The position numbers and the translations under genes were made by a program. From assembly GCA_002281855.1 (NCBI GenBank), contig NCHQ01000002.1, positions 124,001-188,000 of the forward strand: a DNA stretch of 64,000 nucleotides, read 5' to 3'. The notes below the pieces were generated by a model. It did no database searches, had not been told where the DNA came from, and worked only from the letters and a program-made list of their open reading frames with translations. Positions 3,830 through 56,887 of the stretch are shown here, piece after piece; positions within the stretch are counted from its first letter, which is position 1, and each line of letters starts with the position of its first letter. This DNA is from Rhodospirillales bacterium 24-66-33. GTDB lineage: Bacteria; Pseudomonadota; Alphaproteobacteria; Reyranellales; Reyranellaceae.

Positions 3830-5041
<1,212 letters not shown>

Positions 5042-5140
5042 TGGGGGCTCCTTTTAGGGTCCGGAAGGTACCGCGCCGGGTTCCGGCGCGTAAAGCGTGC
5101 GATACACTGTTCCGCAGTGCGTTCAGCCCGCAGGAAGCCG

Positions 5141-6469: not shown

Positions 6470-6473
6470 TTGG

Positions 6474-6495
6474 AAAACCCCGTCGTCTCGACGGG
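6474..6495 (-). terminator. possible intrinsic terminator of the hydrolase transcript
   Basis: CCCGTCG (6479-6485), a TCT loop and CGACGGG (6489-6495) form a 7-bp stem. Read on the minus strand it is followed by GTTTTCC. It lies 82 bp past the hydrolase stop and just after the + strand oxidoreductase. Confidence 0.35.
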
Positions 6496-6576
6496 AAATT
6501 AGTACGTCGTCCCTGTCGGTCCGTATCGGTGATCCTCAGCACCACGACCGGATACGGGCCGACGCGGCACCGCGCC

Positions 6577-7437
6577 TCAGACGCCGAGGAACTTCGTCAC
6601 GAGGGCGACGGTCGCGTCGGGATTTTCTTCCATGATCCAGTGGGCGGCGTTCGGCACGATGCCTTCGGTAACGTCGCTGGCGACGAAGCGCATCACGGCG
6701 GCCATCGTTGGTCCGAACGACTTCTCGCCGCCCAGCGCGAGCACCGGCATGGCCAGCTTGGTCTCGGCAAAGCGCTTGTTGTCGATTTCGTCCTGCGCAA
6801 AGGCCGCGAACTGGGCGAAGCCCGCTCGCATGCCGCCGGGCTGGGCGTAGCGCGCGGCGTAGAATTCGCGCGCCGCCTCGCCGAACTTAGCCGGGTCGGC
6901 GGAGAATTCATTCCAGAAGCGGTCGAGGTAGATGCGCTCGCGTCCCTGGACCAAGCGCTCGGCATCGGGGCCGCGGAAATTGAAGTGCCAGAGCATCGGG
7001 CTGCGCAGGATCTGCTCCCACGGACCGATGCCGGGCAGAGGCGCGTCGATGACCACGAGCCTGCCGACGTCGTTGCGATACTGAGCAGCATAGGCGTAGG
7101 CGACCATGTTGCCGATATCGTGCGCGACGATCTCGGTACGTCCCGCCCTCAGCGTCTGCAGGACCGTTCGGACGTCCTGCGCCTGCGTTGCCTTGTCGTA
7201 GCCGGAGTCGGGCTTGGACGAGAGGCCAAGCCCGCGCAGGTCGGGCGCGATCACCGTGCGCGTCGACATGAGCGCGGCCGCCATCGGCCCCCACATCTCG
7301 CTGGTCTCGCCGTACCCGTGGAGCAGCAGGACCGCCGGTCCCTGACCGCCCACCCAGACGTGGATGTCTGCACCCTTCGTGGCGATCTGCTGCGCACGAA
7401 ATCCGGGCGGCAGCGCCGGTACGCTCGATTCGGTCAT
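6577..7437 (-). CDS. alpha/beta hydrolase, epoxide hydrolase/haloacetate dehalogenase type
   Basis: The protein has 286 residues from the ATG at 7437. VLLLHGYGETSEMW (36-49) contains the oxyanion-hole HGYG. VAHDIGNMVAY has Asp107 at the nucleophile elbow, as in epoxide hydrolases and haloacetate dehalogenases rather than Ser esterases. NAAHWIMEENPD near the C-terminus supplies the catalytic His. It would hydrolyse an epoxide or carbon-halogen bond through an ester intermediate; the substrate is unknown. A TTG at 7479 in the same frame would add 14 residues; neither start has a clear ribosome site. It is 60 bp downstream of the GST gene on the same strand. Confidence 0.85.
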   Translation of the reverse strand: MTESSVPALPPGFRAQQIATKGADIHVWVGGQGPAVLLLHGYGETSEMWGPMAAALMSTRTVIAPDLRGLGLSSKPDSGYDKATQAQDVRTVLQTLRAGRTEIVAHDIGNMVAYAYAAQYRNDVGRLVVIDAPLPGIGPWEQILRSPMLWHFNFRGPDAERLVQGRERIYLDRFWNEFSADPAKFGEAAREFYAARYAQPGGMRAGFAQFAAFAQDEIDNKRFAETKLAMPVLALGGEKSFGPTMAAVMRFVASDVTEGIVPNAAHWIMEENPDATVALVTKFLGV

Positions 7438-7497
7438 GGAACCGATGTGCGCCCGGTGCGAGCCGATGTCGAGAGACAATCCCGGGTCAGGCCCGGG

Positions 7498-8184
7498 TCA
7501 GGCGACCTTCTTGCCGAGGTGCGGGAACATCGCGAGCTTTGCGGCCTCGTCCATCTCGGCCTTGAACGCGTGCTTGTCCTTGAGCGCGAGCGCACGGACC
7601 GCCGCCGGCCGAGCGTTGATCTCGGCGAGGTGACGCTGGAGGTTGGGGAACTGCTTGGGCGCATCGGGTCCCAGCACGAACGGAATCAGGCGCGACCAAC
7701 CCCACACCGCCATGTCGACGATGCTGAAGCTGTCGCCGCACATGTAGGTCTGCTTGCCGAGCCGCGCTTCGAGGATGCCCCAGTGGCGCTGCGCCTCGAA
7801 CGTATAGCGGTTGACGGCGTATTCCTTGGGCTCGGGCGCGAAGTTGCGGAAGTGCACGGCCTGGCCGGAATAAGGACCGATGCCCGACGCCACGAACATC
7901 AGCCAGGACAGCATCTCGCCCCGCCCCTTCGAGCCGGGGGCCGGCATGAACTTGCCCGATTTTTCGCCGAGATAGAGCAGGATCGCGTTGCTGTCGAACA
8001 CCGTCTCGCCGTCGTCGACGATGGCCGGGACCTTGGCGTTCGGATTGATCGCCAGGTATTCCGGCGCATGCTGCTCGCCCTTGCGGGTGTCCACCGGCAC
8101 CAGCTCGTAGGGCAGGCCCATCTCTTCGAGGCACAGCGCCACCTTCATCGGGTTGGGCGCCATGTTGTAATAGAACTTGATCAT
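7498..8184 (-). CDS. glutathione S-transferase
   Basis: The protein has 228 residues. The N-terminal thioredoxin-like domain shows NPMKVALCLEEMGLPYEL, the cis-Pro segment KVPAIVDDG and the gamma-glutamyl-binding DSNAILLYLGEK. The C-terminal half is the all-helical GST domain. It conjugates or exchanges glutathione on electrophiles in the cytoplasm. The ATG at 8184 has GGAGAG 5-9 bp upstream; the frame extends to 8226 without domain content. It precedes the hydrolase gene, and both may belong to one detoxification or catabolic unit with the Bug receptor upstream. Confidence 0.88.
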   Translation of the reverse strand: MIKFYYNMAPNPMKVALCLEEMGLPYELVPVDTRKGEQHAPEYLAINPNAKVPAIVDDGETVFDSNAILLYLGEKSGKFMPAPGSKGRGEMLSWLMFVASGIGPYSGQAVHFRNFAPEPKEYAVNRYTFEAQRHWGILEARLGKQTYMCGDSFSIVDMAVWGWSRLIPFVLGPDAPKQFPNLQRHLAEINARPAAVRALALKDKHAFKAEMDEAAKLAMFPHLGKKVA

Positions 8185-8222
8185 TACACTCTCCGTTTCT
8201 CGGCACTCTCTACCACGGATCG

Positions 8223-9191
8223 TCACTCCGGCTTGGCGCCGGATTGCTTGATGATGGGATCCCAGAAGGCCATCTGGTCGTCGTAGAACTTCTTGGCTTC
8301 CTCGGGCGTCGACTGGATCAGCTCGATGGCGAGCTCGTCGGCCTTCTTCACCATGTCGGGCTGCCTGAGCGCCTGGTTGAAGGCGGCGTTGAGCCTGTCG
8401 ATGATCGGGCGTGGCGTCCTGGCCGGCGCATAGACCGCGTACCAGGTGTTGATGGCGTAATCGAAGCCCGCGGACTCCTTGATCGTGGGCACGTCGGGAA
8501 GCTGCTTCAAGCGCTTGTCGGAGGCGACACCGAGCACACGCACCTTGCCGCCGTCGATGAAGCCCTTGCTCGACTGCAGCGTGTCGATCTGGAAGCCGTG
8601 CCGGCCGGCGATCGTGTCGACCATGCCGGGCGCCGAGCCGCGATACGGGACATGCAGCGCGTCGCCGCCGGCGCGGGTCGCGAACAGGTAGCTCGCGAGA
8701 TGGATCATGCCGCCATTGCCCGACGAGGCGTAGGAATACTTGCCCGGGTCCTTGCGCAGCATGCCGACGAGTTCCGACGTGCTCTTCGCGCCGTCCATGG
8801 GCGCCAGCAGGATCAGCGGCACGCTGGCGACATAGGCAATCGCCGCCAGCCCGTTCACCGGGTCGTAGCCGAGCTGCTTGCCGTAGAGCGCCGGCGCCAT
8901 CGCCATGGTCGAGGCGCTGAACAGGATCGTGTAGCCGTCAGGCTTCGCGTCCGCGACCATCGCGGTGCCGATGTTGCCGGTGGCGCCCGGCTTGTTCTCG
9001 ACCACGACCTGCTGCCCCAGGATTTCGGAAACGCGCGGCGCCAGCAGGCGTCCCACCACGTCAGTCGGTCCGCCCGCGGCGAAGGCGATGACCATGCGGA
9101 TCGGCTTGTCGGGATATGTCTGCGCGGCCGCCGGCGTCGCCAGGGCAGTCGCTGCGAGCGCGGCGAGCGCGCTCCGTCGTGTGAACTTCAT
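8223..9191 (-). CDS. Bug/TctC-family tripartite tricarboxylate transporter receptor
   Basis: The protein has 322 residues with an N-terminal export signal containing TRRSALAALAATALATPAAAQ, cut after AAAQ or nearby. The mature protein opens TYPDKPIRMVIAFAAGGPTD, the signature of the Bug extracytoplasmic solute receptor family (TctC). These periplasmic proteins bind carboxylates or related organic acids and hand them to TctAB permeases. No tctA/tctB genes are in the window, so it is an orphan receptor, which is common in this family. The ATG at 9191 has GAGGGGG upstream; the 22-residue extension to 9257 is rejected. Confidence 0.9.
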   Translation of the reverse strand: MKFTRRSALAALAATALATPAAAQTYPDKPIRMVIAFAAGGPTDVVGRLLAPRVSEILGQQVVVENKPGATGNIGTAMVADAKPDGYTILFSASTMAMAPALYGKQLGYDPVNGLAAIAYVASVPLILLAPMDGAKSTSELVGMLRKDPGKYSYASSGNGGMIHLASYLFATRAGGDALHVPYRGSAPGMVDTIAGRHGFQIDTLQSSKGFIDGGKVRVLGVASDKRLKQLPDVPTIKESAGFDYAINTWYAVYAPARTPRPIIDRLNAAFNQALRQPDMVKKADELAIELIQSTPEEAKKFYDDQMAFWDPIIKQSGAKPE

Positions 9192-9357
9192 CGTTTCCCC
9201 CTCTTGAGCTTTTGCGCCGCTTTTGCCCGAGTTTAGGCTGGTGCAGGCCACGTGCAATGGGGCCCGGTCGCGTGTCGGACCTTCCGGGGCGCGAAGAGCG
9301 ATTGACTGTAACCCGGCCGGGATAATTAGATGGCACTACCTCAGGGGGAGAAAGCCC

Positions 9358-9666
9358 ATGGCAAAGCTCGTGGTTCTCTACAACAAGCCCGCCGACGTGG
9401 CGGCCTTCGATGCCCACTATTTCAACAAGCACGTCCCACTGGCGAAGACGATCCCGGGCCTCCGATCCTACGAAGTCAACGACGGACCCGTCGGCACGCC
9501 GCAAGGTCCAGCGCCGTATCACCTGGTTGCCATTCTGACCTTCGACTCGATGGCGGCGATCGGCGCTGCCTTCGCCTCGAAAGAAGGCCAGGCGACGGCG
9601 GGCGACCTCGCCAACTTCGCCCAGGCGGGGGCTCAACTGCTGATGCTCGAAACCCGCGAGATCTGA
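9358..9666 (+). CDS. EthD-family small protein
   Basis: The protein has 102 residues. It begins MAKLVVLYNKPADVAAFDAH, followed by YFNKHVPLAKTIPGLRSYEV. The HVPLAK-PGL pattern is that of EthD dimeric alpha+beta barrel proteins, first seen beside ether-degrading P450 systems. Members are small cytoplasmic proteins of poorly defined catalytic role. The ATG at 9358 has CAGGGGGAG 7 bp upstream, an excellent ribosome site; the frame is open to 9223 without domain content. It is divergent from the Bug receptor and 82 bp before the amidase. Confidence 0.85.
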   Translation: MAKLVVLYNKPADVAAFDAHYFNKHVPLAKTIPGLRSYEVNDGPVGTPQGPAPYHLVAILTFDSMAAIGAAFASKEGQATAGDLANFAQAGAQLLMLETREI

Positions 9667-9748
9667 CCGTCCATCGAGACGCCCGGCGCCCGGCTCATGT
9701 AAAGATGCGCGCGCCGCCCATCTTGGCGGCGCAATAGAGGGTGTTTCG

Positions 9749-11332
9749 GTGTCGGAAGAACGAAAGACGGCCGTCGACGATGCCTCGTTGTCGGCCTTGC
9801 AGGAAGCCCTGGCGCAGGCTCGCGTCACATCGAGCGACCTCACGCGGTCCTACCTTGCTCGCATCGAGGCCTACGATCGCCAGGGGCCGGGCTTGAACTC
9901 GGTGCGCGTGACCAACCCCGATGCGCTGTCCATCGCCGCCGCCCTCGACACCGAGAAGCCCTCTGCCAGCCGCCCGCTCGCGGGACTGCCGATCCTGCTG
10001 AAGGACAATATCGCCACCGGCGACCGGCAGCCCACCACGGCCGGCTCGCTGGCGCTGGCAGATGCCCATGCAAGGGACGATGCGTTCGTGGCGAGGAAGC
10101 TGCGCGACGCGGGCGCGGTGATCCTGGGCAAGGTCAATCTCACCGAGTTCGCCAACGTCCTCGCGCTCGGCATGCCCTCGGGCTACAGCTCGATCGCCGG
10201 CTATGTCCGCAACCCCTATTCGCCCAAGCTGATGGACGACCCTGCGCCGGTCGTGCTGCCCGGCGGGTCGAGCGCCGGTTCTGCCGTCTCGGTCGCGGCC
10301 GGCCTCTGCGCCGCGGCGATCGGCACAGAGACCTCGGGCTCGCTGCTCAGTCCCGCCACCCAGAACGGCCTCGTCACCGTGAAGCCGACGGTCGGCCTGA
10401 TAAGCCGCAGCGGCATCATCCCGATCTCGCACAGCCAGGATACGGCCGGCCCCCTCACCCGCACCGTGCGCGATTCCGCGATCCTGCTGAACGTACTGGC
10501 GGCGCGCGACCCGGACGATCCGGCGACGCACCTGCTGCAGCGGCCGGACGACTACACCGCCGGTCTCGACAAGGACGGACTGAAGGGCGCGCGCATTGGC
10601 GTGCCCAGCGACCCCGAGGATCCCCTCAACGATCCTTTCTTCGGGCCGCTCAGCCCCCGTGGAAAGCAGGTGATGGCGCAGGCGATCACGGCGCTGGAGG
10701 ACCTGGGCGCCACGGTCGTGCGCGCCGCCCTTCCGGCGATCGCCTGGATCGGCGGCCCCGGCACTGCCATGGCGGTGCTCAACCGCAATCCGTTCAGCCC
10801 GCTGAAGGGAACGGCCGGCAGCGCGTCCCTCGTCTTCCTCTACGAGCTGAAGCGCGACCTCAATCTCTACCTGCGCGACTGGGCGACCCGCACCGACATC
10901 AAGACGATGGCCGACATCATAGCCTTCAACACCGCAAACGCGGAGAAGGCGCTGCGCTACGGGCAGGACCTGTTCCTGGCCGCGGAGGCCACGCGCGGCG
11001 ACCTCTCGGAGCCGGAATACACATCCGCGCGCGCCATGGACCTGGCGGCGGCCGAGCGCGGCATCGACGCCTATATGAGCCGGCACAGGCTCGACGCCGT
11101 CGTGTTCCCCGGCGCGAGCGGCGCCGCGGTCGCGGCGAAGCCGGGCTATCCCAGCGTGCAGGTGCCGGCCGGATTCATCTCGGGCGTCGGCGCCACCGAA
11201 ACGCCTGACTATCCGCTCGGCCTCACCTTCGCCGGCCGCGCCTGGAGCGAGGCCACGCTGCTGCGCTTCGCCTATGCCTTCGAGCAGGCCACCAAGGCAC
11301 GCCGCCCACCGCCGGACCTGCCTCCGCTGTAG
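9749..11332 (+). CDS. amidase (amidase-signature family)
   Basis: The protein has 527 residues. The Ser-cisSer-Lys triad is visible: Lys85 in PILLKDNI, Ser174 in PGGSSAGSA and nucleophile Ser198 in IGTETSGSL. The sequence fits the amidase-signature family (about 450-550 residues), which cleaves amide bonds of small molecules and also includes GatA. It lacks an adjacent gatC or gatB and is therefore taken as a catabolic amidase. No signal peptide is seen. The GTG at 9749 follows AGAGGG. Substrate is unknown. Confidence 0.9.
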   Translation: MSEERKTAVDDASLSALQEALAQARVTSSDLTRSYLARIEAYDRQGPGLNSVRVTNPDALSIAAALDTEKPSASRPLAGLPILLKDNIATGDRQPTTAGSLALADAHARDDAFVARKLRDAGAVILGKVNLTEFANVLALGMPSGYSSIAGYVRNPYSPKLMDDPAPVVLPGGSSAGSAVSVAAGLCAAAIGTETSGSLLSPATQNGLVTVKPTVGLISRSGIIPISHSQDTAGPLTRTVRDSAILLNVLAARDPDDPATHLLQRPDDYTAGLDKDGLKGARIGVPSDPEDPLNDPFFGPLSPRGKQVMAQAITALEDLGATVVRAALPAIAWIGGPGTAMAVLNRNPFSPLKGTAGSASLVFLYELKRDLNLYLRDWATRTDIKTMADIIAFNTANAEKALRYGQDLFLAAEATRGDLSEPEYTSARAMDLAAAERGIDAYMSRHRLDAVVFPGASGAAVAAKPGYPSVQVPAGFISGVGATETPDYPLGLTFAGRAWSEATLLRFAYAFEQATKARRPPPDLPPL

Positions 11333-11379
11333 AGCCAGTCTTTCTGGGCGAGATTGAATCGAGTTGAGCCTCTCAACAA

Positions 11380-11432
11380 TGACCTCATCCTGAGAAGCGC
11401 CGCGAAGCGGCGCGTCTCGAAGGATGAGGTCA
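11380..11432. repeat. intergenic palindromic repeat, family B
   Basis: Perfect 12-bp outer arms, TGACCTCATCCT (11380-11391) and AGGATGAGGTCA (11421-11432), enclose a GC-rich inner stem with one mismatch around a GAA loop. The whole 53 bp folds as one hairpin. It lies between the convergent amidase and gamma-glutamyltransferase genes. Confidence 0.75.
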
Positions 11433-11510
11433 GTGCTTCAATCGCTTCAATTCATTTCCGGCCAGACCCTAAGGTTGAGGTGAGCGGGTCAACTCGAGAC
11501 GGAAGGACTC

Positions 11511-32582: not shown

Positions 32583-33986
32583 ATGACTGTCGTAACCCGC
32601 TTCGCCCCGTCGCCCACCGGCTACCTGCATATCGGCGGCGCCCGCACGGCCCTGTTCAACTGGCTATTCGCCAAACATCACGGCGGCAAGTACCTGCTGC
32701 GCATCGAGGACACCGACCGCGCGCGCTCGACGGAGCCGGCGATCGCCGCGATCCTCGACGGGCTGTCGTGGCTCGGCCTGCCCTGGGACGGCGAGGTCAC
32801 CTACCAGTTCTCGCGCGCCGCCCGACACGCCGAGGTGGCGCTCGAGATGCTGGCCAAGGGCCACGCCTATCATTGCTATGCCTCGCCGCAGGAGCTCGAC
32901 GAGATGCGGGCGGCACAGAAGGCTGCCGGCAAGCCGATGCGCTATGACGGCCGCTGGCGCGACCGCGACCCGAAGGACGCGCCCGCCGGCGTGAAACCGG
33001 TCGTGCGTCTCAAGGCGCCGCAGTCCGGACAGACGGTCATCAAGGACGCGGTGCAGGGCGAGGTCACGGTCGAGAACGCCCAGCTCGACGACATGATCCT
33101 GCTGCGCGCCGACGGAACGCCGACCTACATGCTGGCCGTCGTCGTCGACGATCACGACATGGGCGTAACCCATGTGATCCGCGGCGACGACCATCTGAAC
33201 AATGCCTTCCGCCAGCTCCAGATCATCCGCGCGATGGGCTGGGCAGAGCCGGTCTATGCCCATATCCCGCTGATCCACGGGCCCGACGGCGCCAAGCTCA
33301 GCAAGCGTCACGGCGCGCTCGGCGTCGACGCCTATCGCGACATGGGCTTCCTGCCCGCGGCGCTGCGCAACTACCTGCTGCGGCTGGGCTGGGGCCATGG
33401 CGACGACGAGATCATCCCGACGGCGCAGGCGATCGAATGGTTCGACCTCGCCGGCGTCGGCCGCTCGGCCTCGCGCTTCGATATGGCCAAGCTGACCAAT
33501 CTCAACGCGCATTACCTTCGCGAGACGCCAGACGCTGACCTGCTGCCGCTGGTGCTGCCGCGCATCGAGGAGAAGCTCGGCACCGTCGATGCCGCTGGCC
33601 GCGAGCGCATCGTGCGCGGCCTCTCCGGCGTGAAGCAGCGCGCGCGCACCCTGATCGAACTCGCGGACAGTCTTGCGTTCTACGCCCGCGCTGGCGCGCC
33701 GCCGATCTCCGACGACAAGGCCCGCGCGCTGCTGACACCCGACGCCCGTGCCGTGATGGCGAAGCTCGCGCCGGCGCTGGAGTCGCAGGCGAGCGACTGG
33801 AGCGAAAAGGCGCTCGAAGAGGCCGTGCGTGAGTTCGCCGAGGCGAACGGACTGAAGCTCGGCCAGGTCGCTCAGCCGCTCCGCGTCGCGCTGACCGGCT
33901 CGACCGCCTCGCCCGGCATCTTCGAGGTACTGGCCGTGCTGGGGCCCGCCGAGAGCAAGGTTCGTTTGCTGGCGGCCGCCGCTTGA
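32583..33986 (+). CDS. gltX: glutamate--tRNA ligase
   Basis: The protein has 467 residues, the usual bacterial GluRS length. [21 protein letters not shown] contains the HIGH-type motif, and [12 protein letters not shown] the KMSKS-type motif. It charges tRNA-Glu and, in organisms using the GatCAB route, also tRNA-Gln. The presence of glnS 14 bp downstream raises the question of whether this enzyme is still non-discriminating. It is divergent from comEC, with 84 bp between the starts. Confidence 0.94.
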
Positions 33987-34000
33987 ACGGGAGACAGGTA

Positions 34001-35698
<1,698 letters not shown>

Positions 35699-36725: not shown

Positions 36726-36800
36726 GCCGCCGAACCGGCGAACGGCACCGAGCTTGGTGCGCGCGCCTTGCTTGAATCGAGCCTGGAAAAGAGTTCACCA

Positions 36801-38099
36801 ATGGCCAAATCGACCGCGACGCTGACCGACAACGAAACCGGCAAAACCTACGAGATGCCGATCATCCACGGCACACTCGGACCGCGCCTGGTCGACATCC
36901 GCAAATTCTACGGCGACTCCGGCATGTTCACCTACGATCCGGGGTTCACCTCGACCGGATCGTGCGGCTCGAAGATCACCTACATCGACGGTGACGAGGG
37001 CATCCTGCTCCATCGCGGCTACAACATTGCCGAACTCGCCGAGCAGAGCGACTTCATGGAAGTCGCCTACCTCCTGATGAAGGGCGATCTGCCGAACAAG
37101 GCGCAGAAGGACAAGTTCGTCAAGGACATCACGAACCACACGATGGTTCATGAGCAGCTCAGCCAGTTCTATCGCGGCTTCCGCCGCGACGCCCATCCGA
37201 TGGCGATCTGCTGCGGTGTCGTCGGCGCGCTCTCGGCCTTCTATCACGACTCGCTCGATATCAACGATCCGCACCAGCGGATGGTCGCCTCCTATCGCCT
37301 GGTCGCCAAGATGCCGACCATCGCGGCGATGGCCTACAAGTATTCGGTGGGGCAGCCGTTCGTCTATCCGCGCAACGACCTGTCATACGCCGCCAACTTC
37401 CTGCGCATGATGTTTTCGGTTCCGGCCGAGGAGTACGAGGTCAACCCGATCGTCGAGAAGGCGATGGACCGCATCCTCATGCTTCATGCCGACCATGAGC
37501 AGAACGCCTCGACCTCGACGGTCCGCCTCGCCGGCTCCTCGGGCGCGAACCCGTTCGCCTGCATCGCCGCCGGCATCGCCTCGCTGTGGGGCCCGAGCCA
37601 TGGCGGCGCCAACGAAGCCGTCATCAACATGCTGAACGAGATCGGCGGCAAGCAGAACATTCCGGGCTTCCTGTCGCGCGTGAAGGACAAGGCCGACCAC
37701 ACCCGCCTCATGGGCTTCGGCCACCGCGTCTACAAGAACTACGACCCGCGCGCCAAGGTCATGCGCCAGACCTGCCACGAGGTCCTGACCTCGCTCGGCA
37801 TCACCCACGACCCGCTGCTCGAGCTGGCCATGGAAATGGAGCAGATCGCCCTCAAGGACGACTATTTCGTCTCGAAGAAGCTCTATCCGAACGTCGATTT
37901 CTACTCGGGCATTATTTTCCGGGCGATCGGCATCCCGACCTCCATGTTCACCGTTCTCTTCGCGGTGGCCCGTACGGTCGGCTGGATTTCGCAGTGGAAC
38001 GAGATGATCGAGGATCCGGACCAGAAGATCGGCCGTCCGCGTCAGCTCTACAACGGCCAGACCGAGCGTCCGTACAAGCCGCTCCACATGCGGGGCTGA
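36801..38099 (+). CDS. gltA: citrate synthase (type II, hexameric)
   Basis: The protein has 432 residues. [19 protein letters not shown] and [17 protein letters not shown] hold the catalytic His residues, and [14 protein letters not shown] the catalytic Asp. It condenses oxaloacetate and acetyl-CoA, the entry step of the citric acid cycle. An N-terminal domain of about 60 residues before the core marks the Gram-negative, NADH-sensitive type. The ATG at 36801 with GGAAAAGAG upstream is the start; the extension to 36768 is rejected. In related genomes lpxB follows gltA; here a small protein and gloA do. Confidence 0.95.
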
Positions 38100-38130
38100 A
38101 CTCGCTGTCCGGGAGGGAAGCGAAAAGCAC

Positions 38131-38334
38131 ATGGCAAGATCATCATTCGGGCCGCGCCGGGGGGAAACATCCTGGGCGGCCACCCAGACACCGAAGGCCC
38201 ACCCGCGCATCGTGCGGGTAGGCCGTCCTGCCAATGATAATTTCCGCCCCCCGGGCGTGCGGACATGGCTGTTCGTCGCCGGGCTTGCCGGCGCAGCACT
38301 GGCCCTGGTGGCCGCGAACTGGCGATTTTTCTAG
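38131..38334 (+). CDS. small single-span membrane protein, hypothetical
   Basis: The 67-residue protein is basic at the N-terminus (MARSSFGPRRGE), has a VGRPANDNFRPPG segment at about 30-42, and ends in one membrane helix (WLFVAGLAGAALALVAANWRFF). I do not know its function; the ANDN segment recurs in small alphaproteobacterial proteins as far as I recall. GGGAGGGAAG lies 10 bp upstream of the ATG at 38131, and a strong terminator follows 24 bp after the stop, so expression with gltA is likely. Confidence 0.65.
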   Translation: MARSSFGPRRGETSWAATQTPKAHPRIVRVGRPANDNFRPPGVRTWLFVAGLAGAALALVAANWRFF

Positions 38335-38357
38335 GACTGACTGCCGTCCGAAAGATT

Positions 38358-38383
38358 AAAGGCCCGCAATGCGGGCCTTTTTC
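38358..38383 (+). terminator. intrinsic terminator of the gltA transcript
   Basis: AAAGGCCCGC (38358-38367), AAT, GCGGGCCTTT (38371-38380) is a perfect 10-bp stem running into TTTTTC. It is the clearest rho-independent terminator in the window and closes the gltX-to-small-protein direction. Confidence 0.9.
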
Positions 38384-38419
38384 TTGAGCTTCGTGTGATC
38401 TTCTTTCTTCGACGCTCTC

Positions 38420-38474
38420 GGACATTGCCATAGGCAATGTCCTGTCGCTCCCGGGGCTGAGCTTCGCTCAGCCC
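38420..38474 (-). other. two hairpins at the 3' end of gloA
   Basis: GGACATTGCC-ATA-GGCAATGTCC (38420-38442) and GGGCTGAGC-TTC-GCTCAGCCC (38454-38474) are perfect stems. The second includes the gloA stop codon. Neither has a T tract on the minus strand; they probably stabilise or end the gloA message. Confidence 0.45.
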
Positions 38475-38881
38475 TTGCGCTCGATCAGTTCAATCTTGTA
38501 GCCGTCAGGATCTTCCACGAAAGCGATGACCGTCGTCCCGAATTTCACGGGACCGGCCGGCCGGGTGACCTTGCCGCCCGTCTTCGTGACGTCCTCGCAT
38601 AGCTTGTAGACGTCGGGGACGCCGATCGCGAGATGGCCGAACCCGGTGCCGAGTTCGTAGGGCTTCGCCTGATCCCAGTTGTGAGTCAGCTCGACGACGC
38701 AATGCTCGGGCTCGTCGCCGTAGCCGACGAAGGCTAGGCTGTACTTGCCGTCCGGCACGTCGCGCTTGCGCAGGAGCTTCATGCCCAGCGCACCGGTATA
38801 GAAGGCCAGCGACTTGTCGAGATCCATGACTCGGATCATCGTGTGCAGCATTCGGAAATTGGACTGGGTATCGGGCATCAT
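38468..38881 (-). CDS. gloA: lactoylglutathione lyase (glyoxalase I)
   Basis: The protein has 137 residues. Metal ligands are visible as His13 (MLHTMIRV), Glu64 (CVVELTHNW), His83 (FGHLAIGV) and the Glu in [10 protein letters not shown], as in Ni-type bacterial glyoxalase I. It converts the methylglyoxal-glutathione hemithioacetal to S-lactoylglutathione. The tandem ATGs at 38881/38878 follow GGGAGGGG. It is the last gene of the fabZ-side transcript, at the place where lpxA, lpxI and lpxB usually stand in this neighbourhood. Confidence 0.92.
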
Positions 38882-38903
38882 CCCCTCCCTGCTCTATCGC
38901 GGT

Positions 38904-39380
38904 TCAGCGGTCGCGGATCATGGCGGCGAACGTCGCTTCCGCCGCCACCTTGCCGTCGACGATCGCCTTGCCTGAGAATTTCCAGACGTTGGCTCGGCTC
39001 TGCACCTTCATGACGTGCAGCTCTAGACGGTCGCCCGGCACCACGGGACGGCGAAACCTCACGCCGTCGATCGACATGAAATAGACCAGCTTGCCTTCCG
39101 ACTCGGCGCCGAATGTCGAGACGACGAGCACACACGCCGTCTGTGCCATCGCCTCGACGACGAGAACCCCCGGCATGACCGGCTCGGACGGAAAATGTCC
39201 CTGGAAGAACGGCTCGTTGATCGTGACGTTCTTGATGCCCACCGCGCTCTGGTCGAGCTGCATGTCGATCACTCGGTCGACCATAAGCATCGGGTAGCGG
39301 TGCGGGATCATCTGCAGGATCCGCTTGATGTCGACGGAGGTCGCCGCGGCGGGGCTTCTGTTCTCAATCTGGACGTTCAT
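38904..39380 (-). CDS. fabZ: 3-hydroxyacyl-ACP dehydratase FabZ
   Basis: The 158-residue hot-dog protein has MIPHRYPMLMVDRV, the catalytic His62 in FFQGHFPSEPVMPGV and Glu76 in VVEAMAQ. It dehydrates 3-hydroxyacyl-ACP in fatty acid elongation and normally competes with lipid A synthesis for the 3-hydroxyacyl pool. It begins 18 bp after the bamA stop with no lpxD between. The ATG start is at 39380. Confidence 0.95.
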   Translation of the reverse strand: MNVQIENRSPAAATSVDIKRILQMIPHRYPMLMVDRVIDMQLDQSAVGIKNVTINEPFFQGHFPSEPVMPGVLVVEAMAQTACVLVVSTFGAESEGKLVYFMSIDGVRFRRPVVPGDRLELHVMKVQSRANVWKFSGKAIVDGKVAAEATFAAMIRDR

Positions 39381-39398
39381 GACCGTGGCCTCTCCCGC

Positions 39399-41690
39399 TC
39401 AGAAGCGCGTGCCGAAGCTGAAACGCACGGCCTGCTGCTTGTCCCACACCTCATATTGCAGGGGTATCGCATAGTCGATCCGGATGGGGCCGAACGGTGA
39501 GATCCACTGGACGCCAACGCCGGTCGAGGCGCGCATCAGCTGGCTGCTCAGCACGGACGCTAGACCGTAGGTTTGCGACTGAACGCCCCAGAGCGATCCG
39601 ACGTCGAAGAACGCCTTGCCCAGCAATCCCACTTCTTTGGGAACCAATGGCAGGGGGTAGGATAGCTCGGTGGTGGCCGTGTAGTAGAACTGGCCTCCGA
39701 GGGCATCGGTCGTGTTCGCGTCGCGCGGGCCGATGCCGCCGACGGCGAAGCCGCGCAGCGAATCGCCGCCGATGAAGAACAGATTGTTCAGACGGATGTA
39801 GGAGTTGTTGAACGGCAAGACGAGGCCCACGGACCCGCCGACCGACAGCACGACATCCTCGAAGAGCGACCTGTAATAGACAGCGTCCGCGGTGGTGCGG
39901 AAATACTGCTCGGTGCCGATCAGGCCCGCGGCGGCGATCGAATTGCGGAGCAGCCAGCCCTTGGTGGCGTTCAGGCGCTGGTCCCGGGTATCCCAGATGA
40001 GTGTTTCCGACAGTTCGGACACCACCTGTGTGCCCTGGTTGTCCTGGATGACGTAGGACGCCCAGGGCTGGACGTTGTAGATGTCGGTCTGCCGCAGCGT
40101 GTAGCGGACCAGCTGGCGAATCTCTTCCGAGTAGGCCCAGCCGGCACGCAGCGCGAAGCCGACGCTGCGGTCGCTGTAGCTCGCGATGTTCTGGCGATCG
40201 TTCGACGTCCTGAAGATGTCGAAGCCGGCCGAAAGCTGCCGATCCATGAAGTAGGGTTCGGTGAAGCCGAGGTCGATCGAGGTGCTCAGGGTACCGACGG
40301 ACAGGCCGAGCCGCGCTTCCTGGCCCTTGCCCAGCAGGTTGCGTTCCTTGATCGAGATGTCGCCGACGATGCCGGCCGTGGTCGAATAGCCCGCGCCGAG
40401 GGAGATTTCGCCCGTGCTCTGCTCGACGACCTGAACCTCCAGGTTCGTCTTGTCGGGCGCCGAGCCCGGAGCCGCGGCAATGTCGACCTTCTCGAAGAAG
40501 CCGAGGTTGCGCAGGCGCTGTTCGCTGCGGCGCACCTTGGCAGTGCTGAAGGCGTCACCCTCGGCCAGGCGGAATTCGCGGCGGATCACCTTGTCGAGGG
40601 TGCGCGTGTTGCCTGAAATATTGATGCGCTCGACATAGACGCGCGGCCCTTCCTGCACATCGAAGGTCACGTCGATGGTATTGTTGTCCCGGTTGCGCCG
40701 GATGTTCGGCCGCACGTCCACGAACGCATAGCCCAGCGATCCGACCGCCTCGGAAATGTTCGAAACCGACTTTTCGACCTCGTTGGCGTCGTACCAGTCG
40801 CCCTCGGCGATGGTCAGGAAGCTCTTGAGGACATCGACGTTGAGGCCCTGGAAGCGGCTGGTGACGTCGACCTTGCCGAACTTGTAGCGATCGCCCTCAT
40901 GGATCGTGAAGGTGATGAAGAATCCTTCACGATTGGGGGCGAGTTCCGCGACGGCCGAAACCACACGGAAATCCGCATACCCCTCGGAGAGGTAGAATTT
41001 GCGCAGAAGCTCGCGATCGAGGTTCAGGCGGTCAGGATCGAAGCGATCGTCCGAGCTGAGGAAGCGCCACCAGGCGCTCTCGGAGGTGCGGATCTTGCCC
41101 CTCAGGGTGCCGTCGCCGAACGCCTCGTTGCCGACGAAGCTGATGCGCTTCACGCCCGTGATATCGCCTTCGTTGATCTCGAAGACGACATCGACGCGCC
41201 CCTGCTCGAGCCTGATGATCTTCGGCTCGACCGAGGCGTTGTAGCGGCCGCTGCGACGATAGATAGTCAGGATGCGGTCGACGTCCGCCTGGGCACGCGC
41301 GCGCGTGAAGACCTGTCGCGGCTTGGACTGCACTTCGTCGCGCAGCTTGTCGTCGTCGATCTTCTTGTTTCCCTCGAAGGCGACCCGATTGATGATCGGA
41401 TTTTCCGTGACCTTCACGACGAGGGTCGAGCCCTGCATCTCGATCACGACGTCGGCGAACAATCCCGTCGCGAACAGCGCTTTGAGTGAACGATCCGCCG
41501 CGGCCGCGTCGAACGGCTCGCCGACCTTGAGTTGGAGGTACGACCGAATCGTCTCCGGCTCCGAGCGGACATTACCCTGGATCTGAACCCCGGTTATCGC
41601 ACCACCCACGGCAGCGCCACGCTGTGCGTGTGCCGGCGCGGTGAAGGCCAGGATTGCGAAGACGGCCAGTACGGCCCAACGAACGATCAA
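39399..41690 (-). CDS. bamA: outer membrane protein assembly factor BamA
   Basis: The protein has 763 residues. A signal peptide (about 1-22, ending PAHAQ) precedes five POTRA domains (about 30-345; for example GVQIQGNVRSEPETIRSYL, RVAFEGNKKIDDDKL, RISFVGNEAFGDGTL) and a 16-strand barrel ending in the terminal Phe of RFSFGTRF. It inserts beta-barrel proteins into the outer membrane. The start is TTG at 41690 after GGGGGTAAG. No skp/ompH or lpxD gene follows, unlike the usual order. Confidence 0.95.
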   Translation of the reverse strand: MIVRWAVLAVFAILAFTAPAHAQRGAAVGGAITGVQIQGNVRSEPETIRSYLQLKVGEPFDAAAADRSLKALFATGLFADVVIEMQGSTLVVKVTENPIINRVAFEGNKKIDDDKLRDEVQSKPRQVFTRARAQADVDRILTIYRRSGRYNASVEPKIIRLEQGRVDVVFEINEGDITGVKRISFVGNEAFGDGTLRGKIRTSESAWWRFLSSDDRFDPDRLNLDRELLRKFYLSEGYADFRVVSAVAELAPNREGFFITFTIHEGDRYKFGKVDVTSRFQGLNVDVLKSFLTIAEGDWYDANEVEKSVSNISEAVGSLGYAFVDVRPNIRRNRDNNTIDVTFDVQEGPRVYVERINISGNTRTLDKVIRREFRLAEGDAFSTAKVRRSEQRLRNLGFFEKVDIAAAPGSAPDKTNLEVQVVEQSTGEISLGAGYSTTAGIVGDISIKERNLLGKGQEARLGLSVGTLSTSIDLGFTEPYFMDRQLSAGFDIFRTSNDRQNIASYSDRSVGFALRAGWAYSEEIRQLVRYTLRQTDIYNVQPWASYVIQDNQGTQVVSELSETLIWDTRDQRLNATKGWLLRNSIAAAGLIGTEQYFRTTADAVYYRSLFEDVVLSVGGSVGLVLPFNNSYIRLNNLFFIGGDSLRGFAVGGIGPRDANTTDALGGQFYYTATTELSYPLPLVPKEVGLLGKAFFDVGSLWGVQSQTYGLASVLSSQLMRASTGVGVQWISPFGPIRIDYAIPLQYEVWDKQQAVRFSFGTRF

Positions 41691-41814: not shown

Positions 41815-43194
41815 TCAGCGCAGCAAAAGCCTGATGTCATTGAAAGTTGCGATCAGCGCCATGCCGATCACGAGTGCAAATCCGAGCTTGAGCCCGACCT
41901 CCTGGGCCCGCAGGCTGAGCGGCTTACCGCGTACCGCTTCGTAAGCATACATCGCCAGATGACCGCCATCGAGCATGGGGACCGGAAGAAGGTTGAAAAT
42001 GCCCAGCACCACGGACAAGGCGATGACGAGATTGAGAATACCGGCCCAGCCCGCATAGGAAGCCTCACCCGCAGCCTTGGCGATACGGATCGGTCCGCCC
42101 AATTCATCCACAGGCCGGGTGGCGGTCAGGATCTGTCCCATCGACGTGTAGAACATCGACGTCATTCCCCACACGGCCCGCACCCCCGCTCCCATGGCGC
42201 CGATCACGCCATGGTCACGGAGTTCGGTAACTGCCGCGGGACGGATGCGCAGACGGCCGACGATCTGCTCCTTGCCGGCGCAATCGGCCACCTTGTCGAC
42301 GATCGGCACGACCGTCGTGTCCCCGAATCGGCCGTCGCGTTCGTACCGGACGGTCACCGGCTCGCCGCCGCGGCTGCCGATCAGCTCCGGGATGCGTGAG
42401 AAATAGTCGACGGGCTTGCCGTCGATCGCCACCAGGAGATCGCCGACCTTGAGGCCGGCCGCCTCGGCCGGGCTGTTCGCCGTGAAGCCGCCGACCACCG
42501 GACGGATGTACTGATCCATCCCGAGATCGCCGTAGCGCAGCATGTTGTTGTAGCGATCCGTCCGCTCGCAATATTGCGGCTGGATCTCGCCGTGCAGGAG
42601 CTGGTTGCCCCGACGGTATTCGACCGACATCGGCTTGGCCCAGTACAGGAACTGGGATTCCTGGATGTCCTCGTAGCGATCGACCCGTTTGTCGGCGAGA
42701 CGGACGATCTCGTCGCCCGAGCGCAGGCCGGCTTTGGCGGCCGGCCCGTCCGCCTGCACCGCGACGGTTGCCGGCGTATAGGGCTCGCCGGCGAAGAAAT
42801 AGACGCCGGTCAGCAGTACGAATGCAAACAGGAGATTGGCCATCGGGCCGCCCAGGACGACGGCGGCACGGGCGTAGAGGGGCTGGCTGAAGAAGGCCCG
42901 GCGGCGGTCGGTTGGCGACAGGGGCTCGTCGGTCGGAGTCGCACTGGTCGCATCATTGTCGCCCAGAAACTTTACGTAGCCGCCGAGCGGGATCGCCGAA
43001 ATCTTCCAGCGTGTGCCGTTTCGGTCGGTCCAGCCGAACATTTCGGGACCGAAGCCGATCGAGAAGACTTCCGCATGGATGCCGAATCGACGTCCGACCC
43101 AGTAGTGACCGTATTCGTGAACGAAGACGAGCAGCGTCAATACGAGGACGAAGTACGGCAGATACGTCGTAAACAGGCTCACTATGCTCTGCAT
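41815..43194 (-). CDS. rseP: site-2 intramembrane metalloprotease RseP
   Basis: The protein has 459 residues. VFVHEYGHYWVGRRFGIH places the zinc HExxH at 26-30 in the first membrane helix; PVPMLDGGHLAMYA near residue 395 holds the Asp zinc ligand. Two PDZ domains lie between (AKAGLRSGDEIVRL and AEAAGLKVGDLLVAID). It cleaves membrane-bound anti-sigma factors and leftover signal peptides. It stands between dxr and bamA, the normal order, and is likely co-transcribed from the rpsB side. Confidence 0.95.
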   Translation of the reverse strand: MQSIVSLFTTYLPYFVLVLTLLVFVHEYGHYWVGRRFGIHAEVFSIGFGPEMFGWTDRNGTRWKISAIPLGGYVKFLGDNDATSATPTDEPLSPTDRRRAFFSQPLYARAAVVLGGPMANLLFAFVLLTGVYFFAGEPYTPATVAVQADGPAAKAGLRSGDEIVRLADKRVDRYEDIQESQFLYWAKPMSVEYRRGNQLLHGEIQPQYCERTDRYNNMLRYGDLGMDQYIRPVVGGFTANSPAEAAGLKVGDLLVAIDGKPVDYFSRIPELIGSRGGEPVTVRYERDGRFGDTTVVPIVDKVADCAGKEQIVGRLRIRPAAVTELRDHGVIGAMGAGVRAVWGMTSMFYTSMGQILTATRPVDELGGPIRIAKAAGEASYAGWAGILNLVIALSVVLGIFNLLPVPMLDGGHLAMYAYEAVRGKPLSLRAQEVGLKLGFALVIGMALIATFNDIRLLLR

Positions 43195-54324: not shown

Positions 54325-54332
<8 letters not shown>

Positions 54333-55584
54333 GTCGCAATCCTTCGACCGGTTCGATCCGGGTGGCGCGCCAGGCCGGATAGGCCGCGGCGACGAGCGAA
54401 AGCACGATCGCCACGGCGATGATGAACGCCACCTCGACCGGGTCCACGCGCACGGGCATGGAGGTGATGAAGTCGACCTCGGCCCCGGCGGTGCCGGCGC
54501 CGCCGGTGACGTTCGCGAGCGCGCGGCCGATCGCGGGCATGTTGGCGCAGAGCAGAAGGCCCAGCGCCGCGCCGATCGCCGTTCCGACGACACCCACGGC
54601 CGCCGCCGCCATGAAGAAGGCGCGTATGATCGTACCAGGCGCGGCTCCCATGGTCCGCAGGATCGCGATACTGCCGCGCTTGACGCGCACCAGCATGGTG
54701 AAGCTCGCGACCACGTTCATGGCGGCCACGACGACGATCAGGGTCAGGATGATGAACATCATCACCCGCTCGACCTGCAGCGCGCCGACGAAGCGCGCAT
54801 TGAGGCCGAGCCAGTGCGACACGCGCAGATCCTCGCGGCCGAGCGACCGGCGCAGGTCCTCGGCCACCTTCGGCGCTGACTGCGGATCCTTCAGGAACAG
54901 GTCAATCGAACTCACGGTTTCCTTGCCGTATTCGAGATCCTCCTGCAGCGCCGCCAGCGGGATGAACACCAGGGTGCTGTCGAACTCGTAGCGGCGGCTC
55001 ATGAAGGTGGCCAGGATGTCGTAGTCGCTGTAGCGCGGCGCGATCGTGCCGCCCTCGTTCAGCTGGTGGGTAACCACGGTCAGCGGCTCCCCCACCCTCA
55101 CCTGCATCTGCTGGCGCAGCCGTTCGCCGATCACCAGGCCGGGCTTCAGGCCGAACTCCGCCAGGTCGCCGAAGATGATGTTCCTCGACACGATGTCCCG
55201 ATTGAGGAGATCATCCCGCCGCACGCCGCGCAGCTGCGCACCGCGGGTCTGGCCGTGCCCGGTGACGAGGACCTGGCGCTCCAGGGTGAGCCGCACCGCC
55301 TCGACGCCGGGGACGTCCTTGAGCTTCGCCAGGAGACCCGGCGTGGCCTGCAGCAACCCGCCGCGCGCGGCGACGATGACATGGCCGTTCATGCCGATGA
55401 TCCGGCCCAGGAGCTGCTCGCGAAAGCCGCCCATGACCGAGAGAACGGCGATCAGGGTCCCGACCCCCAGCGCCACGCCGATCAGAGAGAACATCGCGAT
55501 GAAGGAGACGAATCCCTCGCGCTGGCGGGTGGCGAGGTAGCGCCAGGCGAGCCAGCGCTCGACGACGGGCGCGCGATCACTCAC
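54325..55584 (-). CDS. lolE: LolC/LolE-type permease, second of a tandem pair
   Basis: The 419-residue protein has an N-terminal membrane helix ([20 protein letters not shown]), a periplasmic MacB-like domain of about 230 residues and three C-terminal helices ending [20 protein letters not shown]. This is the LolCE/FtsX topology. It shares an overall pattern with the 436-residue neighbour at 55577 but differs throughout the periplasmic domain. GTG 55584 overlaps that gene's stop by 8 bp. Assignment as E versus C is by position only; single-permease (LolF-like) systems are an alternative family. Confidence 0.88.
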
Positions 55585-56887
55585 GGCGCAGGCCCTCCAC
55601 CGGATCGAGGCGCGCCGCGCGGGCGGCAGGGTAGATCGAGGCGAGCAAGGCGAAGACCAGCGCCATGATCGCGATACCGGCGACCTCGCTCCATTCGATC
55701 CGCGACGGCAGTTCGGCCAGCAGGTAGAGGGTCTGGTCGAACAGCACGATGTCGAAGGTCCGCTGCAGCCACTGCCGGATCGCCTCGATGTTGCGCGCGA
55801 AGGCGAGCCCCAGCACGACACCCAGAATCGTCCCGGCGCCGCCGATCGAGAGCCCGTCGAGCATAAAGATCCGCATGATGGCCGCCCGGCTGGCGCCCAT
55901 GGTGCGCAGGATGGCGATGTCGGCGGTCTTGGTCCGCACCAGCATGACCAGGCTGGACACGATGTTGAAGGCCGCGACGAGCACGATCATCGTCAGGACC
56001 AGGAAGATCATGTTGGTCTGGGCGACGACGGCCGAGAAGAAGCCGGCATTGGCCTGGAACCAGTCGAACACCCAGCCCTGCGTTCCCACCGCCTGCATCA
56101 GCAGCCGGCGCGTCTCCGCGGTCGAGGCTTTGTCCGACACGAACACCTCGATACCCGTGACGTTGGGCCCAAGGTTGAGCATGTGCTGGGCGTCTTGCAG
56201 CGGCGCGTACACGAAGTTGGAATCGTAGTCGTACATGCCGGTACAGAAGATCGCGGCGACCTTCACCGCGGCAGAGCGCGGCATGACCCCGAGCGGCGTC
56301 GCGACGGAGACCGGCGACACGAGCTGCAGCCTGTCCCCCACCTTCAGGTTCATGAGATCGGCCAGGCGGCGGCCGATCACCACGGTAAAATCGTCGCCGA
56401 AGCCCTTGAGGGTGCCCCAGTCGATCGGCTTGTCGTCGTCGGCCTTGCACAGCGTGCGATAGCGTTCGCGGTTTTCCGGCGATCCCTCGATCGCCGATGC
56501 GAGCGGCGGGCGGTTACGGATGTCGTCGGGCCGCATCCCGCGCAGCACGATCCCGCGCACCCGGTCTCCGGCCACGGCCATGAGCTGTCCCTCGGCCGTC
56601 GGCGTGGCAGACTCGACGCCCGGCACCGCCGCCAGGCGCTTCAGAAAGTCGGGCGTGGGCTCGAGGGGGCCGCCATTGGACTGGACCCCCAGCTGGCCGC
56701 TGATGCTCGACATCTGCGCCAGCATCTCGACGCGGAAGCCGTTCATCACCGACATCACGACGATGAGGGTACCGACCCCCAGCGTGATGCCGATCAGCGA
56801 GAAGCCGGCGATCACCGAAATGAAGCCTTCCTCGCGGCGGGCCCGCAGGAAGCGGAAGGCGATCAGGCGTTCGGCGGCGAAGGACAT
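55577..56887 (-). CDS. lolC: LolC/LolE-type permease, first of a tandem pair
   Basis: The 436-residue protein has the same layout: helix 1 (FISVIAGFSLIGITLGVGTL), a periplasmic MacB-like domain, and three C-terminal helices ending [20 protein letters not shown]. It contains AAFNIVSSLVMLVRTKTADI, the usual LolC loop after helix 2. With its paralogue and LolD it would form the LolCDE lipoprotein exporter. The ATG is at 56887, 20 bp from the proS stop. Confidence 0.9.
   Translation of the reverse strand: MSFAAERLIAFRFLRARREEGFISVIAGFSLIGITLGVGTLIVVMSVMNGFRVEMLAQMSSISGQLGVQSNGGPLEPTPDFLKRLAAVPGVESATPTAEGQLMAVAGDRVRGIVLRGMRPDDIRNRPPLASAIEGSPENRERYRTLCKADDDKPIDWGTLKGFGDDFTVVIGRRLADLMNLKVGDRLQLVSPVSVATPLGVMPRSAAVKVAAIFCTGMYDYDSNFVYAPLQDAQHMLNLGPNVTGIEVFVSDKASTAETRRLLMQAVGTQGWVFDWFQANAGFFSAVVAQTNMIFLVLTMIVLVAAFNIVSSLVMLVRTKTADIAILRTMGASRAAIMRIFMLDGLSIGGAGTILGVVLGLAFARNIEAIRQWLQRTFDIVLFDQTLYLLAELPSRIEWSEVAGIAIMALVFALLASIYPAARAARLDPVEGLRRE

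Follow-up and report, generated by a model that had tools for sequence, protein, structure and literature searches.

Does a bacterium whose lipid A genes are missing from their usual place still build its outer membrane with lipid A? The question arises from a 64,000-nucleotide stretch of DNA from Rhodospirillales bacterium 24-66-33 (contig NCHQ01000002.1, positions 124,001 to 188,000; we refer to the whole stretch as the window), in which bamA, fabZ, gloA, and gltA are close together and the lpx genes that share this neighborhood in other alphaproteobacteria are missing. For the genus Reyranella, to which the source genome belongs, we are fairly confident of the following answer: there is no lipid A pathway, the lipopolysaccharide transport (Lpt) bridge has been lost, a ceramide pathway has been kept, and the outer leaflet is probably ceramide-based, with a lipid that would be delivered independently of Lpt. 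The outer membrane is thus probably free of lipopolysaccharide (LPS). What is new is the loss of the Lpt bridge along with LPS.

Lipid A genes are missing between bamA and gltA

The locus contains the following features (ORF is short for open reading frame).

36768-38099, plus strand: gltA, citrate synthase (PF00285, 462 bits), one end of the conserved neighborhood
38131-38334, plus strand: ORF of 67 amino acids, function not assigned, no Pfam match
38468-38881, minus strand: gloA, lactoylglutathione lyase / glyoxalase I (TIGR00068, 163 bits, cut-off 120), which follows lpxB in many relatives
38882-38903, no strand: fabZ/gloA junction of 22 bp, the site of lpxA-lpxI-lpxB in relatives and the scar of the second loss
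38904-39380, minus strand: fabZ, 3-hydroxyacyl-ACP dehydratase (ACP is short for acyl carrier protein; NF000582, 202 bits, cut-off 113; TIGR01750, 201.5 bits, cut-off 155)
39381-39398, no strand: bamA/fabZ junction of 18 bp, the site of skp and lpxD in relatives and the scar of the first loss
39399-41690, minus strand: bamA, outer-membrane protein assembly factor (Omp85/POTRA; PF07244 in five stretches, plus PF01103)
41815-43194, minus strand: rseP, M50 protease (PF02163, 214 bits), the other end of the neighborhood

The first-pass annotation, made from the window alone, had described bamA and fabZ as 18 bp apart with no skp or lpxD, and had seen only gloA and the 67-amino-acid ORF between fabZ and gltA. 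The coordinates bear out both statements, and the gene identities hold up in Pfam and NCBIfam. Relatives of the window's BamA are found in R. massiliensis 521, R. soli, R. aquatilis, and Enhydrobacter aerosaccus (74-88%) and in Reyranella or other bins (at most 92%). The source genome (G000; genomes are numbered with G and loci with L) is 99.8% complete, with 6,122,537 bases in 54 contigs. BamA is retained, which argues for the existence of an outer membrane.

To compare this locus across relatives, we placed 16 reference proteins by tblastn on 80 bamA loci, 29 from the Reyranella lineage and 51 from outgroups. The order bamA-fabZ-gloA is found in 28 of the 29 Reyranella-lineage loci, with gaps of 19-74 bp as judged from the tblastn ends; the remaining locus (L038) ends inside bamA. 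No tblastn match to skp, lpxD, lpxA, lpxI, or lpxB was found in any of the 29. Among the outgroup loci, skp and fabZ were each detected in 46, lpxA and lpxI in 42, lpxB in 41, and lpxD in 27. Nine outgroup loci lack lpxA: six of these (L061, L063, L064, L071, L083, and L084) extend merely 0.6-2.4 kb beyond bamA, while L047, L058, and L082 extend 7.8-10 kb and truly lack lpxA there. An ORF similar to the one of 67 amino acids is present in 22 of the 29 Reyranella-lineage loci, and tblastn detected none in the 51 outgroup loci.

The ancestral order, as in L057 and L059, is gltX-gltA-gloA-lpxB-lpxI-lpxA-fabZ-lpxD-skp-bamA-rseP. (The order given in the first-pass annotation is correct, but gloA and skp need to be added to it.) From the block skp-lpxD-fabZ-lpxA-lpxI-lpxB-gloA, Reyranella lost both flanks of fabZ and retained fabZ and gloA, which agrees with the earlier proposal of a selective loss of lipid A genes (0/29 loci, versus lpxA in 42/51 outgroup loci). 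The lpx genes would have been removed from either side of fabZ, and fabZ itself would have stayed because fatty-acid synthesis needs it.

Two loci from metagenome-assembled genomes of non-Reyranella Rhodospirillales, L058 (5585-14843) and L047 (5836-12928), keep bamA-skp-fabZ, and neither lpxD nor lpxA was detected over the 6-9 kb that lie downstream of fabZ. These are either rearranged or additional LPS-free lineages. Elsewhere in the window, ORFs at 54325-56887 resemble the lipoprotein-release genes LolC/E (by the look of their sequence), which fits a retained outer membrane. Also, in some Reyranella loci gltX is followed by a glutaminyl-tRNA-synthetase-type gene (33983-35698 in the window), which was not detected at that place in other loci, L018 and L026 among them.

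Genome-wide searches for lipid A and Lpt genes

We searched 61 genomes with curated profiles: G000 and 36 others of the genus, 1 from elsewhere in the order, and 23 of the class from outside the order. Whole-genome searches of G000 at E 0.001 turned up no LpxC, LptD, LpxB, WaaA, or LptF/G, and the best match to the LpxA profile scored 24 bits, versus a cut-off of 231. LpxB, LptF/G, and over-cut-off LpxA were found in none of the 37 genomes of the genus, and in the two single-contig genomes (G016 and G022), none of the searched lpx, waaA, or lpt profiles had a match over its cut-off. LpxC and LptD were found once each within the genus, in the draft assemblies G033 and G013, respectively, to which we return below. 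For WaaA, the genus yielded three weak matches (G015, G021, and G022, at 20-24 bits), one of which, taken with its neighbors, was barely over the cut-off; because no other lpx gene is present in those genomes, we judged all three to be other glycosyltransferases.

The profiles themselves work: of the 23 class genomes from outside the order, the same searches picked out 21 with LptF/G, 20 each with LptD, LpxB, and WaaA, and 18 each with LpxC and with LpxA over its cut-off. The E. coli and Caulobacter controls were positive in every lpx, waaA, and lpt search. LpxD was tested solely via the LpxA profile, with which a known LpxD (L053) scores 100 bits. Cross-hits to this profile in the class genomes, mostly beside lpxA, score about 40-107 bits, well above the best score from G000.

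The first-pass annotation had offered two options, that the genes had moved or that lipid A had been lost. The negative searches of G000 favor the loss.

The Lpt genes are missing from a second conserved neighborhood. (Around surA-pdxA, LptD, LptF/G, and pdxA were named by profile searches and the remaining genes by the look of their sequences.) The outgroup G038 has pepA-lptF-lptG-lptD-surA-pdxA-ksgA (L213). In both G000 (L212) and G022 (L214), surA-pdxA, the adjacent acyltransferase, gmk, and yicC are present, and lptF, lptG, and lptD are absent. Two relatives still have LptD: in G037, which is from the same order, lptD adjoins surA-pdxA (L126), and in G196, which is from the same family but another genus, it lies away from surA and pdxA. 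We take the G196 protein to be an orthologue that moved, because it is 47% identical to LptD from G037.

At the site of G038's lptD, upstream of surA, G000 has GHMP-kinase-like and RmlC-like ORFs, as judged by eye (L212, 2528-7022; contig C31, about 452-457 kb). These nucleotide-sugar type genes possibly serve the synthesis of a surface polysaccharide without lipid A.

A ceramide gene cluster is conserved in the genus

The first-pass annotation had suggested sphingolipid as another outer-leaflet lipid and serine palmitoyltransferase (SPT) as the gene to look for, and SPT is indeed present in the genome, over its curated cut-off. TIGR01825 proved too broad as a probe for SPT, and NCBIfam then sorted the three hits in G000. 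These alpha-oxoamine synthases are a 5-aminolevulinate synthase, a BioF-like enzyme, and an SPT (on contig C28). The SPT scores 651 bits with NF047599 (cut-off 500); with the AlphaP model NF047603 it scores 501 bits, short of the 670 required. Among proteins of solved structure, its best relatives bear the name serine palmitoyltransferase (447 bits), and it contains GTFSK, which we take to be the motif with the pyridoxal phosphate-binding lysine. Across the 61 genomes, SPT passed the cut-off in 37/37 genomes of the genus and otherwise only in G037 and G049; the remaining 22 class genomes had none over it.

The gene for SPT lies in a cluster (coordinates are those of locus L123).

3830-5569: aasR, fatty acyl-AMP ligase (NF006624, 738 bits, cut-off 600)
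5579-6499: putative cerR, epimerase-like reductase
6634-6915: acpR, acyl carrier protein (PP-binding)
6918-8144: spt (NF047599)
8158-9078: metallophosphoesterase
9086-10237: protein of 383 amino acids, putative cerS, with no Pfam, NCBIfam, or PDB match
10237-11484: MFS protein

The ceramide genes are present in order: aasR-cerR-acpR-spt was found in all eight of the genus loci that we read. An island in E. coli BL21(DE3) brings together yghO and genes for a fatty acyl-AMP ligase, an epimerase, an ACP, SPT, LptG, and LptF. The G000 proteins are 42% (ligase), 33% (reductase), 44% over 45 residues (ACP), and 49% (SPT) identical to those of BL21, and the 383-amino-acid protein is 40% identical to YghO. 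The similarities of the reductase and of the 383-amino-acid protein extend over nearly their full lengths, in a comparison with the BL21 proteins alone. Given its linkage, its length, and its similarity to YghO, we infer that the 383-amino-acid protein is CerS. In BL21 itself, YghO stands beside sphingolipid genes and an LptF/LptG pair (L236, 383-8101) and is probably a ceramide N-acyltransferase. According to part of the text of PMC9386255, co-expression of AasR, AcpR, and SPT from BL21 yields 3-oxo-sphinganine.

Together, these five enzymes would make ceramide. AasR would load a fatty acid onto AcpR, SPT would condense the AcpR-bound fatty acid with serine, the YghO-like N-acyltransferase (CerS) would add the second chain, and CerR would reduce the ketone.

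The MFS gene follows the gene for the 383-amino-acid protein in 8/8 genus loci and in 0/14 other loci, and its conservation in the cluster makes it a candidate inner-membrane flippase. In relatives (G037, G196, and G071 were read), spt and the phosphoesterase gene are separated by ORFs that, by their look, are possible head-group genes. In 7 of the 8 genus loci these ORFs are missing and spt directly adjoins the phosphoesterase gene. In G014, what appears by eye to be an ABC exporter cassette lies between the phosphoesterase gene and spt (L220, 2819-7905).

Loss of LpxC across the class

We also searched a sample of 241 genomes from the class, each at least 90% complete, for LpxC, SPT (E 1e-120), and LptD alone. 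LpxC was found in 206 genomes and is missing from 35, of which 15 were identified by their absence from the LpxC-positive list; SPT was found in 39 (38 over the cut-off) and LptD in 221. SPT is present in 23 of the 35 LpxC-less genomes versus 16 of the 206 LpxC-bearing genomes (Fisher test, odds ratio 22.8, p = 1.6e-13; these values are descriptive only, because shared ancestry is ignored and the 23 genomes fall in 11 families). Examples of the LpxC-less, SPT-bearing genomes in these 11 families are G071, G073, G089, G102, G106, G119, G153, G174, G202, and G237. The families f30 and f84 contain both LpxC-bearing and LpxC-less members, which suggests that LPS was lost several separate times in the class.

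LptD is present in 20 of the 23 LpxC-less, SPT-bearing genomes, including G196, and the three without it (G000, G016, and G030) are all Reyranella. For the other 19 of these genomes, the loss of LPS is read from LpxC alone, except for G049, which also lacks LpxB and WaaA.

In 9 of 12 LpxC-less genomes from outside the genus, an LptF/LptG pair lies near spt (G049, G196, G071, G073, G102, G119, G153, G174, and G202). None was seen near spt in G106 (on a contig of 5.8 kb), G089, or G037. The genome-wide profile search likewise gave no LptF/G in G037, but we did not count this as a loss because its sphingolipid contig ends just past the phosphoesterase gene, where LptF follows in relatives. The pair is near spt in none of the eight genus loci that we read.

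Evolutionary history

We built an unrooted tree of 45 SPT proteins, from 13 of the 37 genus genomes, G037, G196, 29 other genomes of the class, and E. coli BL21. The SPT proteins of the order (15 rows) form one group (support 100/97), within which G037 and G196 branch first, and this group stands beside five other LpxC-less genomes (97/94). G037 (81% complete) also lacks LpxC, LpxB, and WaaA, and G196 lacks LpxC. The ceramide pathway would have been inherited within the order. In the simplest order of events that we infer, a sphingolipid cluster with its own LptF/G was inherited, the lpx genes were lost in or before the order, and Lpt was lost later, in Reyranella. This history is drawn from the 45 SPT sequences and from gene content, not from a species tree.

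Interpretation and alternative explanations

With lipid A gone, a ceramide-based lipid would fill the outer leaflet, and the loss of LptF, LptG, and LptD in Reyranella suggests that it would arrive at the outer membrane by an Lpt-independent route. A bolder proposal, which we offer tentatively and hold to be a little short of an even chance, is that Reyranella is a natural diderm with a ceramide-based outer lipid and no Lpt machinery at all. A second route for bulk lipid would then exist, such as an MFS flippase with bridges of the AsmA/TamB or MCE type, and relatives such as G196, G037, and G049 would preserve earlier steps, in which lpxC was lost and LptD was kept, perhaps to carry sphingolipid.

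Several points weigh against an LPS-free, ceramide-based outer membrane with Lpt-independent delivery. The absence of lipid A and Lpt genes covers lpxA, lpxB, lpxC, waaA, lptD, and lptF/G; the searches did not extend to lpxK, lpxH, the kds genes, msbA, or lptA/B/C. The first-pass annotation had named a full lpx set at other sites in the genome as the finding that would reduce this to a rearrangement, and such a set is excluded for lpxA, lpxB, lpxC, and waaA and, indirectly, for lpxD. Across the genus, cross-hits to the LpxA profile reach 47 bits (in G012) and overlap the weakest outgroup ones (40-46 bits), so that they are weak evidence about LpxD genus-wide; we took them as hexapeptide cross-matches, since they are far below the cut-off. 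SPT alone does not equal the loss of LPS: it also occurs in the E. coli and Caulobacter controls and in 16 class genomes that have LpxC, and conversely 12 of the 35 LpxC-less genomes are without it. The absence of LptF/G near spt is not special to the loss of Lpt, because they are also absent there in both of the LpxC-bearing loci that we read (L233 and L234, from G187 and G121). And the Lpt-independent route is argued from the absence of genes.

Two draft assemblies also count against it. In G033 (75% complete, about 800 contigs), LpxC is on a contig of 3,005 bp with a gene for BamD and an ORF that, by its look, may be the end of ftsZ. The GC content of this contig (0.69, and 0.85-0.91 at third positions) is much like that of the genus, and the nearest loci available for comparison are about 51% identical; this LpxC may or may not belong to a genome of the genus. 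G013 (6% contamination) has a partial LptD, cut by the end of its contig. Compared with the LptD proteins of a family member (G196), an order member (G037), and G038, it shows 29%, 27%, and 34% identity, respectively; the proteins of G196 and G037 share 47% with each other. The GC content of its contig is 0.70, and most neighboring ORFs have third-position GC of 0.9-1.0, versus 0.78 for the LptD ORF itself. It is likely, though not proven, that this LptD is contamination.

Another reading accepts the loss of LPS and holds that the outer leaflet consists mostly of phospholipid, together with hopanoids or other lipids, and that ceramide has its role elsewhere. The possible head-group ORFs and the LptF/LptG pair of the relatives' clusters are gone in Reyranella, as this reading would have it, and the portion of PMC12583986 that bears on the question lists hopanoid-pathway proteins for Reyranella genomes and has a row for Enhydrobacter aerosaccus in a hopanoid table (column heads not seen). 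We nevertheless find it unlikely, given that the ceramide cluster was kept at every genus locus read and SPT in every genome of the genus, and that SPT accompanies the loss of lpxC in the class sample.

Simple rearrangement, with the lpx and lpt genes relocated within the genome, was tested first. Relocation does occur (lpxD was not detected at this locus in Azospirillum loci, lpxA is missing from L047, L058, and L082 despite their long flanks, and LptD in G196 lies away from surA), but the whole-genome profile searches for LpxA, LpxB, LpxC, WaaA, LptD, and LptF/G, which detect these genes in most of the 23 class genomes from outside the order, led us to reject it as highly improbable in G000. 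It is similarly hard to credit that LPS is made by very divergent Lpx enzymes that went unrecognized: remote homologues can escape profile searches, but here several independent families would have to be missed together, and both conserved neighborhoods lack the genes.

Comparison with known systems

It is an open question why lipid A can so rarely be dispensed with, and by what route a substitute gets to the outer leaflet. Reyranella, which includes cultured species, and its LpxC-less relatives that keep LptD form a natural series in which to study what Lpt carries without LPS and what replaces Lpt. We predict that Reyranella will be negative in the limulus amebocyte lysate (LAL) assay and insensitive to inhibitors of LpxC. 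In the open-licence literature of PubMed Central (PMC), as judged from titles and the starts of abstracts, we found no report of Reyranella as LPS-free or sphingolipid-bearing; species descriptions in subscription journals were outside this scope. A 2020 taxonomy paper states, in part of its text, that sphingolipids are apparently restricted to Sphingomonadales within the class (PMC7179689). The gene content described here suggests that this view is too narrow.

The canonical alphaproteobacterial locus has lpxD-fabZ-lpxA-lpxI-lpxB, whereas none of the 29 Reyranella-lineage loci has lpx genes between bamA and gltA. An outer membrane without lipid A is known from laboratory strains of Caulobacter (a fur mutant) and Acinetobacter baumannii, and that of Caulobacter depends on a sphingolipid (PMC10964400). 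Those are selected mutants, while in Reyranella the condition would be genus-wide.

As in Caulobacter crescentus (CC_1165-CC_1162 and CC_1154; the order is given in part of PMC11324152), Reyranella has aasR-cerR-acpR-spt, in which cerR is putative, and a linked, putative N-acyltransferase. Unlike Reyranella, Caulobacter has LPS, and the region also carries LptC2/F2/G2 and head-group genes; LptF/G is not in the Reyranella cluster. The same portion of PMC11324152 suggests that the Caulobacter LptF/G copies help to carry sphingolipid to the outer membrane. The E. coli BL21(DE3) island also differs in carrying an LptF/LptG pair, but it has counterparts of all five Reyranella ceramide proteins, at 33-49% identity.

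Reyranella is set apart from its LpxC-less, SPT-bearing relatives by the absence of LptD and LptF/LptG. (That these relatives retain Lpt is a pattern from the present data rather than a published definition.) For example, G049, which might at a guess be a sphingomonad, lacks LpxC, LpxB, and WaaA, has SPT, and keeps LptD as well as LptF/G, which adjoins spt; Reyranella has neither. A known parallel is Sphingomonas, where sphingolipids take the place of LPS (PMC10964400; also part of the text of PMC11087976): like LPS-free Sphingomonas, Reyranella combines the absence of the searched lipid A genes with a ceramide pathway that includes SPT.

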